DNA from: Nitrospira sp. | Lineage (GTDB): Bacteria > Nitrospirota > Nitrospiria > Nitrospirales > Nitrospiraceae | Direction of reading: 5' to 3' | Assembly (NCBI GenBank): GCA_005116965.1 | Contig: SWDG01000027.1 | Coordinates: forward strand, 631,273-680,598 | Length of the DNA: 49,326 bases | Shown: one piece after another, positions 42,835 to 46,667 of the stretch | Layout of the letters: each line of letters starts with the position of its first letter | How positions within the stretch are numbered: position 1 is the first letter of the stretch | The notes under the pieces: model-generated | What the model was told of the DNA's origin: nothing | Database searches by the model: none | What the model saw: the letters and a program-made list of their open reading frames with translations, nothing else | Program-made: the position numbers and the translations under genes

Positions 42835-43233
42835 TCATCCCTTCACTGCTGCCTCAATATCTGTTCGTGAAAAATCATGGCCCTTGAACAGTAGGGCCGC
42901 ATCCATGGCCTTTGCCAATGCGTAGGAGAAGCAGTCCCCGAAGTTCAGATTCGCCGCATGTCTGCCTTTGCCAAATTTTCTAAAAGCTCCCCGCGCGATG
43001 TTCGCCTGCTCGACATCCACCGGCACGATCTCTATTCCTGCTTTCAGGACAAACAAATCAAAATCCCTCAATCCGTCATGTCCCATTCTGCCTTCCATCA
43101 CCATGGAAACCTCGACGAAACTGACTGCCGACATCAGACACCGTTTCGCTTCTTCAATGACCTCATTGAACGTCCGCCGTTCCGCCTCATCCCGCAAAAT
43201 TGCCACCACGGCAGACGTATCAATCACAATCAC
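42835..43233 (-). CDS. vapC: VapC toxin, PIN-domain ribonuclease
   Basis: A 132-residue PIN domain. Acidic metal-binding residues are visible in MIVIDTSAVVAIL (Asp 5), in FVEVSMVMEGR (Glu), in NFGDCFSYALAKA (Asp) and in the late GHDFSRTD. VapC toxins cut tRNA or rRNA using Mg2+. It starts at GTG 43233, overlapping the vapB stop by 4 bp, so antitoxin and toxin are translated in step with antitoxin first. Confidence 0.9.
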   Translation of the reverse strand: MIVIDTSAVVAILRDEAERRTFNEVIEEAKRCLMSAVSFVEVSMVMEGRMGHDGLRDFDLFVLKAGIEIVPVDVEQANIARGAFRKFGKGRHAANLNFGDCFSYALAKAMDAALLFKGHDFSRTDIEAAVKG

Positions 43234-43484
43234 GCGGGCATCCCGTTTTCATCGTACCCGAGAATTTCGTCGTCGGTACGCCTATCGTGCAAAGGCAGGG
43301 AGGCGCAGTGTCGCGCAATCTCATCCAGCTCATCGGCCAGCCGCTTCCGCCTGCGCCGTCGCTTCAACTGGTCAAGACGTTCCTTCAACGCCGTGGTCAC
43401 GGCCTCGGTCTTGGTTTCCCCGGTCAGCGCCACGATGGCCTGAGCCAGCTTTTCCGTTTCCGTATTTCGAATGTTCAGAGCCAT
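43230..43484 (-). CDS. vapB: VapB antitoxin, Rv0623/PSK family
   Basis: An 84-residue protein; ATG 43484 fits the usual start MALNIRNTETEKLAQAIV. The short conserved RHH-like region ETKTEAVTTALKERLDQL is followed by a strongly basic helix KRRRRRKRL and an acidic C-terminal tail that would block VapC. The predicted promoter lies about 40 bp upstream (43522-43550). Confidence 0.87.
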   Translation of the reverse strand: MALNIRNTETEKLAQAIVALTGETKTEAVTTALKERLDQLKRRRRRKRLADELDEIARHCASLPLHDRRTDDEILGYDENGMPA

Positions 43485-43521
43485 ACGTTCACCATTACTA
43501 CACATTTAACAACACAGCTAC

Positions 43522-43607: not shown

Positions 43608-43781
43608 TTAGAAAGACGCCGGTGCTGGTAGCTGAATGAGGCCCGCCCACGACTCGATCCGATCTCCCAACACAAACCGATGAGAACGGGGAAATTTTCC
43701 CACATGATTGATGAGCCAAAGCAGCACATCGTAGGCCTTCGTGACGGCGGTTGGGAGGGTTCCTGTGGCTTCGTCGGTCAT
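43608..43781 (-). pseudogene. avd: Truncated avd, accessory gene of a diversity-generating retroelement
   Basis: A 57-codon ORF from ATG 43781, preceded by GGAGG five bases upstream, to TAA 43608. Residues 13-43 include TKAYDVLLWLINHVGKFPRS followed by HRFVLGDRIE. This is the N-terminal helix-turn region of Avd/four-helix-bundle proteins that assist DGR reverse transcriptases. After RIE (near 43653) similarity stops and the frame ends 14 codons later, so about half of the expected 110-130 residues are gone. It directly follows a gene with a DGR-type variable region, the normal place for avd. Fold: helices 1-2 only, hence probably inactive. Confidence 0.75.
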
Positions 43782-43869: not shown

Positions 43870-45771
43870 TTAGTTCGGACGGTCCTGGGCACATCGGAAC
43901 CCAATATTGCCGTTCCAATACGTCGGTGAGTTCCTGAGCCGGAGTGCAGATCGCACGGAGGCCGGTACATTGTCCCAGGACCCACCACGGAGCACACGAT
44001 ACTGGCCGCTCGAGGGCCCTTTCGGATTCCGCGCGGGACTTGCACTGTAATAGTTCTCGTCATACCAGTCCGCCGTCCACTCCCTCACGTTCCCGCTGAT
44101 GTCATACAGTCCCCAAGGATTGGTCTCATAGGACCCAACCGGTGCTGTGCGCACCGCGCCGTCGTTATAGCCCGACATAATCACGCTCAACAGATGCTTG
44201 GCTGACTCGTCGGCGATATTTTCAACCAGCCTGGTCCCTGGATTCCCCTGCCCCCACCAGTATGGCGTCGTGGTGCCCGCGCGTGTGGCATATTCAAACT
44301 CCGCCTCCGTGGGAAGCCGCTTCCCCGCCCATCGACAATAGGCCTGCGCATCACCCCATGATACCGACACGACAGGATGGTCCGCCCGACCAGAATCAAA
44401 GACGGTTGCGCCTGCTTCCGGCTTCTGCCAATTGGCCCCCTTGGTTTCTTCCCAGCCTTTGCCCTCCACGAAGGCCCACGCGCTGCCTTCCTGCTCTGCC
44501 GTCGTCCGGTGGCTGGTTTGCTGCACGAACTGCTGGAATAGCCTGTTTGTCACCTCGTACTTGTCCAAGTAGAACGCGTCCAGCTGAACCCTGTGCTGAG
44601 GGAGTTCTCCTTTGAACCATCCTTCGCAAGTCTGCTGGTCTTTCTTGTACTCTTTGACGCAGGTTTGGATTGCACGGTCCACGTCGTCCTTCGTACTGCC
44701 CATCTGGAAATTCCCAGCGGGTATCAGCACCATCGGCGCACCGTCTTTGCCGGTGATAGTCTTTTCCACCTCGGCTACAGGTCGAGGTTTGGTTACCACG
44801 GCCTCCCCAGTGTTCGTGGCCTTCTTCACAGTTCGTTTCTCTTGAGTTGTCGCCGCAGATGGTTGTGTGATCGGTGCTGGCGCAGGAGGCGGTGTGCTCA
44901 CCTCAGGCCGAGTAGTCGGCGGATGTACGGTTGATTGGTATGGCACCACCGCTCTTGGCTCAGGCGAAGGGCTTTGCGAAAAGATCAGAAAATAGACCAG
45001 CGCTCCGATTGCCGCAAGGATGCCAAGCCCAATGGAGAGGTATGGGAAAGACTCGGTGGACGGAGCCGGACCTGTCGCTTCACTCGGACGGTCCTCGCTG
45101 GACCGCACCGATTCCTGATCGTCTCCCGAAACGTCCACCACCTCCGTGGACGAGGCAGATTCCACGGAAGAGTCCTGGCCAACGTCGCCGGCCATAGTGG
45201 AAGACGGTTTTCGTTTTGATTTTGGTTTTGGCTTCGGTTTCTGTCGCTCAGGTTCCGGGTCCACCTCGGTGGCGCTCTTCGATAGCGACTCTTCGGCTTC
45301 CGGCGTCGGGCTGGTTGGCGCAGGTAGCGGCGCCAGGGTCTGGATCACGGGAGATGGTTGAACCGCAACGCTCGACGGAACACCGATGACCCCGGCTAGA
45401 TCCTCGAGAAATTGATCAAAACCCGCATGCTCTTGGCCCGGTTGCCAATCCATCAAGTGCGCGGCTTGCAGATGTTCGAACTCCAGCGGAATCTCGACTT
45501 CGTCAAGCAGCATCACGGGGAATAAGATGTTTCGCCGCAAGCCGCTCCGCGATTCATTCTTGACCCAGGTGCTTTTGACCGAGGTGTTAGTCCACACCAC
45601 CACTACGGACCTCGCTGTTTTCAGCGCCTCGTGAATGACCTCGTCAAACGACTTGCCTGCGGGGATACGCCGATCCCACCAGACCGACCACCCCTTCCCT
45701 TCCAACGCGCGCGCCAGAGCCTGGACGCGGCCCTTATCCTCACTGGCGTAACTGATGAAGATGTCACTCAT
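43870..45771 (-). CDS. TIR-transmembrane-FGE protein with DGR-type variable C-terminus
   Basis: A 633-residue protein. Residues 1-130 are a TIR domain (DIFISYASEDKGRVQALARA, WDRRIPAGKSFDEVIHEAL, SVKSTWVKNE with Glu 73 at the NADase position). Residues 131-243 form a Pro/Ser/Lys-rich linker with KPKPKPKSKRKP, 246-265 a membrane helix, and 266-340 a second Pro-rich linker. Residues 341-628 are a formylglycine-generating-enzyme/C-type lectin fold (MVLIPAGNFQMGS, KRLPTEAEFEYATRAG, GLYDISGNVREWTADW, RVLRGGSWD, NIGFRC). The FGE fold is used here for binding rather than sulfatase activation, since no sulfatase is near. The predicted form is an intracellular TIR enzyme coupled through the membrane to a variable sensor. 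Confidence 0.85.
   Translation of the reverse strand: MSDIFISYASEDKGRVQALARALEGKGWSVWWDRRIPAGKSFDEVIHEALKTARSVVVVWTNTSVKSTWVKNESRSGLRRNILFPVMLLDEVEIPLEFEHLQAAHLMDWQPGQEHAGFDQFLEDLAGVIGVPSSVAVQPSPVIQTLAPLPAPTSPTPEAEESLSKSATEVDPEPERQKPKPKPKSKRKPSSTMAGDVGQDSSVESASSTEVVDVSGDDQESVRSSEDRPSEATGPAPSTESFPYLSIGLGILAAIGALVYFLIFSQSPSPEPRAVVPYQSTVHPPTTRPEVSTPPPAPAPITQPSAATTQEKRTVKKATNTGEAVVTKPRPVAEVEKTITGKDGAPMVLIPAGNFQMGSTKDDVDRAIQTCVKEYKKDQQTCEGWFKGELPQHRVQLDAFYLDKYEVTNRLFQQFVQQTSHRTTAEQEGSAWAFVEGKGWEETKGANWQKPEAGATVFDSGRADHPVVSVSWGDAQAYCRWAGKRLPTEAEFEYATRAGTTTPYWWGQGNPGTRLVENIADESAKHLLSVIMSGYNDGAVRTAPVGSYETNPWGLYDISGNVREWTADWYDENYYSASPARNPKGPSSGQYRVLRGGSWDNVPASVRSALRLRNSPTYWNGNIGFRCAQDRPN
43891..43998 (-). 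other. Putative DGR variable region (VR) in the FGE domain
   Basis: Codons 592-627 cover RVLRGGSW to NIGFRC, the exact segment that DGRs mutate in FGE-type targets. The fixed frame residues (RVLRGGSW, VRSA, NIGFR) are kept. The positions between are enriched in NNC codons: GAC 600, GCC 604, TCC 605, CTC 610, CTC 612, AAC 614, AAC 620, GGC 621. That is what adenine-directed mutation of AAC codons produces. No template repeat was found in the window. Confidence 0.65.
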
Positions 45772-46077: not shown

Positions 46078-46341
46078 ATGCACACAACCAGTCTACGCAA
46101 AGTCGGTGGCTCGATTATGTTGACCGTGCCACCCGCCTTCCTCGATCAACTCCACCTGCAAGCTGGTGCGACGGTCGGCCTCGTGATCGATAACGGTCGC
46201 CTCGTCGTCGAACCTGCTGCACGGCCGCGTTACACAATGGCCGAACTGCTGGCCGAAGCAGAAGCGGCGGGCGTGTATCCACTGCCGGCGGAAGAACGCG
46301 AATGGATCGATGCACCGGCTGTCGGAAAAGAGCTGATCTGA
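46078..46341 (+). CDS. mazE: MazE-type antitoxin (AbrB/SpoVT fold)
   Basis: An 87-residue protein. The N-terminal swapped-hairpin DNA-binding domain reads TTSLRKVGGSIMLTVPPAFLDQL followed by GATVGLVIDNGRLVVEP. The C-terminal part TMAELLAEAEAAGVYPLPAEEREW is acidic and would wrap the toxin. It resembles the ChpB-linked antitoxin ChpS. Its stop overlaps the mazF start by one base. Confidence 0.88.
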   Translation: MHTTSLRKVGGSIMLTVPPAFLDQLHLQAGATVGLVIDNGRLVVEPAARPRYTMAELLAEAEAAGVYPLPAEEREWIDAPAVGKELI

Positions 46342-46667
46342 TGAAACGCGGCGATATTTATATGGTTGATCTTGAGCCAACAACAGGACATGAGCAGCGC
46401 GGCCAACGGCCAGTGCTGATCGTAACCCCTGAGGCATTCAATCGCCTCACAGCCTGTCCGGTGGTTGTGCCCATTACCCGTGGTGGTGACTTTGCTCGAC
46501 GAGTCGGCTTTGCGGTTCCCCTTAGCGGCATCAAGACAACAGGTATCGTACGCTGCGACCAACCACGTGCGCTGGATCTCGCCACACGCGGCGGACACAA
46601 GGTGGATACCTTGCCGGCATCGATCATGGACGAAGTGCTGGCAAAGGTTGCGACGCTCTTTGCGTAA
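46341..46667 (+). CDS. mazF: MazF/ChpB-type toxin, mRNA interferase
   Basis: A 108-residue toxin from ATG 46341. MKRGDIYMVDLEPTTGHEQR, RPVLIVTPEAFN, PVVVPITRGGDFARRVGFAV and TTGIVRCDQPRALDL match the ChpB subgroup of the CcdB/MazF fold. It cuts mRNA at short sequence motifs. Coupled to mazE by TGATG. A 14-bp perfect palindrome GAGCATGCATGCTC (46677-46690) follows the stop and may mark the transcript end, though it has no T-tract. Confidence 0.9.
   Translation: MKRGDIYMVDLEPTTGHEQRGQRPVLIVTPEAFNRLTACPVVVPITRGGDFARRVGFAVPLSGIKTTGIVRCDQPRALDLATRGGHKVDTLPASIMDEVLAKVATLFA

Follow-up and report, generated by a model that had tools for sequence, protein, structure and literature searches.

The gene at 43870-45771 on the minus strand of the 49,326-nucleotide stretch analysed here (the window, which belongs to contig C12 of a 3.73 Mb, 27-contig Nitrospira genome) ends in a segment that resembles the variable region (VR) of a diversity-generating retroelement (DGR). 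This raises the question of whether a DGR shaped the segment and whether one still does. The predicted product has 633 amino acids and joins a TIR domain to an FGE domain (Pfam TIR_2, 1.8e-22, and FGE-sulfatase, 2.5e-66), and the gene has its closest named relatives in Nitrospira. The TIR domain, detected with Pfam, occupies residues 4-121 (45409-45762, minus strand) and contains the motif STWVKNE at residues 67-73, whose Glu73 is presumably similar to the NADase glutamate of TIR enzymes. A charged linker separates this domain from a putative single transmembrane helix recognized from the sequence (residues 244-264; 44980-45042, minus strand). The FGE-sulfatase or C-type-lectin-like domain spans residues 346-628 (43888-44736, minus strand), as delimited by Pfam and by alignment to solved FGEs, and the VR lies at the 3' end of this C-type-lectin/FGE-type gene. 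The fold assignment is based on Pfam and on sequence matches to solved structures, among them the Treponema denticola DGR variable protein 2y3c. Outside the VR, the TIR and FGE domains are under purifying selection, with a dN/dS of about 0.13-0.14 relative to a second Nitrospira genome, G031. Upstream of the gene, at 46078-46667, there are two small plus-strand ORFs of 87 and 121 amino acids that, judged by eye alone, look like a MazE/MazF-type toxin-antitoxin pair.

Alignment to solved FGEs showed that the FGE active-site cysteines are absent from the window protein, and this absence speaks against an active formylglycine-generating enzyme of the SUMF1 kind. Because the cysteines are missing and the domain matches 2y3c, a binding role is, from its sequence, more likely than formylglycine synthesis. 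The FGE domain may provide a C-type-lectin scaffold on which residues of the VR touch a ligand, which might be an antigen of a phage or of a cell surface. Binding would then switch on the TIR domain, probably through NAD+ breakdown, for defence or cell death; we infer both the ligand binding, from homology to known DGR proteins, and the immune function. The TIR domain matches models from Thoeris and other defence systems with modest scores, and a role as sensors of conflict systems has been suggested for DGR targets bearing TIR and C-type-lectin (CLec) domains (PMC10907252; PMC7159879).

The original prediction placed a DGR-type variable segment at 43891-43998 on the strength of NNC codons set in an invariant frame. 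Codons 592-627 indeed read RVLRGGSW...VRSA...NIGFRC, and all eight NNC codons were found (GAC600, GCC604, TCC605, CTC610, CTC612, AAC614, AAC620 and GGC621). Taken alone, such codons are ordinary: they make up 11 of the 36 in the segment, about the median of 36-codon stretches of the same gene, and the pattern therefore becomes evidence only once a template is available. A DNA search of 79 genomes of the same genus detected template-like sequences in several. One is the template repeat (TR) of the lineage-1 DGR of Nitrospira sp. RSF5 (G016), and the VR-TR pair considered here is thus a cross-genome one, with the TR taken from the genome of another species. The window region matched by this TR is 43882-43992 (minus strand), slightly shifted from the predicted interval. 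Over its 111 nucleotides there are 14 differences, 13 of them at TR adenines and the other a C to T change. In the 99-nucleotide core, 12 of 30 adenine sites are changed versus one of 69 non-adenine sites (hypergeometric p=1e-6), and the reverse test, which asks if the adenines of the window are the changed sites, was null. The RSF5 TR and the RSF5 VR differ in the core at 11 of 30 adenine and 0 of 69 non-adenine sites. At the eight NNC codons of the window the TR has AAC, GAC, AAC, AAC, AAC, AAC, AAC and GAC, and three further variable codons are not of the NNC form (GTA602, TCA615 and TAT618, for GAA, ACA and AAT in the TR). The NNC pattern, unremarkable on its own, is significant against this template.

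The distribution of the changes over codon positions bears on their origin. TR adenines in the core are changed at 6 of 13 first, 6 of 12 second and none of 5 third positions, and the 29 non-adenine third positions of the VR are all identical to the TR; just upstream, in the flanking part of the gene, third-position identity between the window and RSF5 is 65-69%. In the comparison of the two genes, the VR has a dS of 0.10 and a dN/dS of 2.3, and the FGE domain before the VR a dS of 0.74 and a dN/dS of 0.12. Among 20 related Nitrospira VRs, a set that contains related copies and represents fewer than 20 independent events, mean entropy is 1.62 bits at TR-adenine columns versus 0.45 at non-adenine columns. 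Third codon positions considered separately give 1.67 versus 0.77. Since the adenine-column bias extends to third positions, selection on the protein sequence alone would not produce this pattern. Ordinary divergence of an FGE/C-type-lectin loop under selection, with no DGR and a coincidental NNC pattern, could draw on the variable loop that all these FGE-fold proteins have at the same place, on the NNC content, which is not elevated, and on a mild adenine bias also present in paralogues without a matching TR (p about 0.003-0.03). However, the window VR is much more strongly biased, with one mismatch at 69 non-adenine sites against 22-32 in the paralogues, its third positions have been homogenised to the template, and a remnant of a DGR gene adjoins the target. 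We regard loop divergence as an extremely improbable explanation.

This remnant comprises the first 44 codons of avd (43650-43781, minus strand), directly downstream of the TIR-FGE gene; the original prediction overlooked it. It was identified with tblastn and the NCBIfam model DivGenRetAVD and is 93% identical to the Avd of RSF5. The model match (7.8e-07, positions 4-35 of 104) is under the curated cut-off, as expected of a fragment, and the open frame runs on outside the family to 43608. An intact avd is absent at the window locus. Homology to the RSF5 cassette stops at 43650 and that to the flank in G031 starts at 43628, which places the breakpoint at 43628-43650. Beyond it the remaining avd, the reverse transcriptase (RT) and the TR are absent, and the sequence below 43628 is host flank common to relatives. 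This flank contains two small minus-strand ORFs of 91 and 132 amino acids (42835-43505), VapB/VapC-like by eye only and with no significant NCBIfam family, and is conserved in G031 and in another genome, G060. G031 is syntenic with the window across most of 36.5-49.3 kb and has an orthologous TIR-FGE gene next to the same flank, without avd. In G060 the flank lies beside a mere scrap of the target-gene 3' end, on a contig that stops 217 bp past the junction. Relatives thus join the same flank to the end of the target gene, which counts against a chimeric assembly at the break.

No DGR-type RT, recognized by the motif (I/V/L)GxxxSQ (PMC3521204), was found beside the window gene. When the window's own genome was searched with an 'X-or-A' template pattern allowing up to 3 mismatches, the VR itself was the sole match. 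As this pattern is strict for a diverged TR, the assembly was also searched at the DNA level, with a TR-like sequence as well as the RSF5 cassette as queries. Neither query revealed a TR, and the cassette, from avd to TR, matched just the avd stub, the VR and, weakly, an RT on contig C6. This RT (C6:824133-825175, L026; motif IGNLTSQ) is the sole DGR-type RT found in the genome. It belongs to lineage 2, being 96% identical to the RT of genome G013, and sits between two 100-N gaps, the first of which cuts the preceding FGE gene. The TR of its lineage, also missing from the assembly, probably sits in a gap.

A VR that is still diversified in trans, as the remote target of an RT and a TR located at another site of the genome, would find its RT here, between gaps that could hide a TR, and activity in trans has been described in Thiohalocapsa (PMC10907252). 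The template of the resident lineage argues otherwise: the G013 TR mismatches the window VR at 22 of 70 non-adenine sites and fits the FGE gene at C7:169890-170531 (L017) of the same genome, where 18 of 29 adenine and 4 of 70 non-adenine sites differ. By its sequence, the latter gene carries a lineage-2 VR and is a second DGR target of this genome. Neither a TR nor an RT of lineage 1 was found in the assembly. Diversification in trans is therefore very unlikely, and the C6 RT was rejected as its driver for its wrong TR lineage. That no lineage-1 TR turned up is good evidence, though not conclusive, as the assembly is interrupted by 100-N gaps and two of these flank the C6 RT. FGE paralogues of the same genome mismatch the lineage-1 TR at 21-32 of 69 non-adenine sites. 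Three of them (L023, L015 and L009) have a weak bias versus any TR tested, with 22-35 non-adenine mismatches, a background that variability of the loop would produce by itself.

Complete lineage-1 cassettes are present in two other Nitrospira genomes. In RSF5 (SWDO01000004, contig C30) the target gene, avd (119 amino acids), RT (348 amino acids) and TR lie on one strand. In Nitrospira 4_1_May_SF_Bin59 (G058:C135, JAOUHJ010000047) there are a VR, avd, RT and TR plus a TIR part. Both RTs are of the DGR type, with the motif IGNQTSQ. In the RSF5 target (L059:8901-10574), a protease-like N-terminus takes the place of the TIR part of the window gene, an exchange of the N-terminal module ahead of an FGE domain common to both. 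Near the 3' end of the VR at G058:C135:16857-16974 (L106), the reading frame is shifted by an apparent insertion of one base, which is either real or an assembly error.

Sequences matching the TR or VR occur in 25 genomes, ten of which, the window's own included, also have an RT match to this DGR lineage. In the other 15, Pfam RVT_1 finds nothing in five, and the RTs of the remaining ten are ruled out as DGR RTs by an SP-type motif where it is readable; among these ten, one RT fragment gave no motif and the match in G032 is weak and below the cut-off. Several of the genomes that lack the RT are near-complete and most are metagenome assemblies, from which some RTs may be missing. Two genomes contain avd stubs behind target genes, of 46 codons in G006:C29 (L125:9246-9383) and 52 codons in G052:C242 (L119:9878-10033). 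The breaks cluster at avd codons 44-52, and the sequence after the break is different in each stub genome. A different arrangement was found in G077:C19 at about 25788 (L058:10789). Here the target gene continues up to the VR, which is at template-like sequence, and is followed by the 3' tail of a TR, with 83-85% identity over about 285 nucleotides, while avd and RT are absent. This is an apparent VR-TR recombinant, and removal of avd and RT is as expected from such recombination. In G017, a TR-like sequence of lineage 3 (C2:917213-917319, L113) has its likely VR on another contig (C5:236139; 16 of 30 adenine and 4 of 69 non-adenine sites differ), and no DGR-type RT was found there by RT profile and motif search. 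Nitrospira TIR-FGE targets thus appear to have gone through several apparently independent losses of the DGR machinery.

We conclude that the segment is, very probably, the VR of a DGR target whose cassette was broken inside avd, the gene now being most likely one fixed variant. In DGRs, adenine positions are randomised when the RT copies the TR, and mutagenic homing writes the cDNA over the VR; the TR-VR pattern expected of this process is what was observed here. A lineage-1 DGR (with target gene, avd, RT and TR in this order) would have acted in this way on the TIR-FGE gene of an ancestor, with its cDNA written over the 3' end of the gene. The cassette would have been broken inside avd at a later time, and for this step we infer a deletion in place. 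Against this explanation, the matching TR belongs to another species, with none found in the own assembly, whose gaps make this absence less than proof, and the N-terminus of the RSF5 target is protease-like, not TIR, although the cassette of G058:C135 does have a TIR part. In a variant of it, the target gene and the start of avd arrived or were copied as a unit and never had an RT and TR of their own at this site. Stubs of similar length behind targets in three genomes (44, 46 and 52 codons) and an inserted segment in G006 whose right edge is the avd break are consistent with such an arrival. However, different sequences follow the breaks, an observation that independent deletions would explain just as well, and G031 has the syntenic gene without avd, so that this variant is possible but rather unlikely.

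The window gene is apparently an orphaned target of a DGR, with a VR that is frozen unless one of the assembly gaps contains a TR, and present diversification of this VR is unlikely. The original prediction left open whether the diversification was past or present. DGR action is borne out by the near-exact TR in a related genome, the adjacent avd stub and the complete cassettes around related genes, and 'past' is better supported than 'present'. The original prediction also held that a genome without a template repeat, together with changes spread evenly over all codon positions, would speak against a DGR. The assembly yielded no template, but the changes concentrate at adenines and at particular positions instead of being spread evenly; the missing template reflects the loss of the cassette at this site, not the absence of a DGR. 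A more general idea, which we consider unlikely, is that in Nitrospira the genes for TIR-FGE sensors lose the DGR machinery again and again and thereby fix a hypervariable sensor at a selected specificity. Such losses might proceed through VR-TR recombination or through breaks confined to a short section of avd, and, if true, would represent a bacterial analogue of receptor fixation after a diversification phase.

A binding region made by a DGR, binding being predicted here, can outlive its mutator, and the data suggest that different breaks removed the machinery several times within one genus. Nitrospira that have or lack it offer a natural comparison of whether a useful specificity is fixed once found or the mutator is simply lost. 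DGRs in the phylum Nitrospirae were counted already in 2012 (PMC3521204), and a limited literature search found no prior description of TIR-FGE DGR targets in Nitrospira. The cassettes most like the window locus are those of RSF5 and 4_1_May_SF_Bin59, which have its target FGE domain (82% identity in RSF5), its avd start and, in RSF5, a TR that matches all but one of the 69 non-adenine core sites of the window VR; unlike the window, they have kept the full avd, RT and TR. In Treponema denticola, according to the available part of the report (PMC4891356), targets are likewise kept in isolates without RT and TR and are read as remnants, and 19 of 21 changes in the SP32 VR fall at adenines of the TR of another strain type. 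Phylum and target are different, however, and TIR fusions and avd stubs are not mentioned in that part. Thiohalocapsa PB-PSB1 (PMC10907252) resembles the window in its CLec/FGE targets linked to TIR, STAND or peptidase domains and in its incomplete loci, and has trans-acting loci as well; it differs in that most loci diversify in read data and in its other target architectures. Cyanobacterial DGR variable proteins also carry C-terminal CLec VRs on varied N-terminal domains, and remote paralogues are common among them, but unlike the window gene these remote targets were each attributed to a DGR of their own genome (PMC7517822). Orphan DGR targets were thus known before, from Treponema denticola and Thiohalocapsa. 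New here are the TIR-FGE target family in Nitrospira, the several apparently independent losses of its machinery and the apparent VR-TR recombinant in a relative; less expected among these are the recurrent losses and the recombinant of G077.
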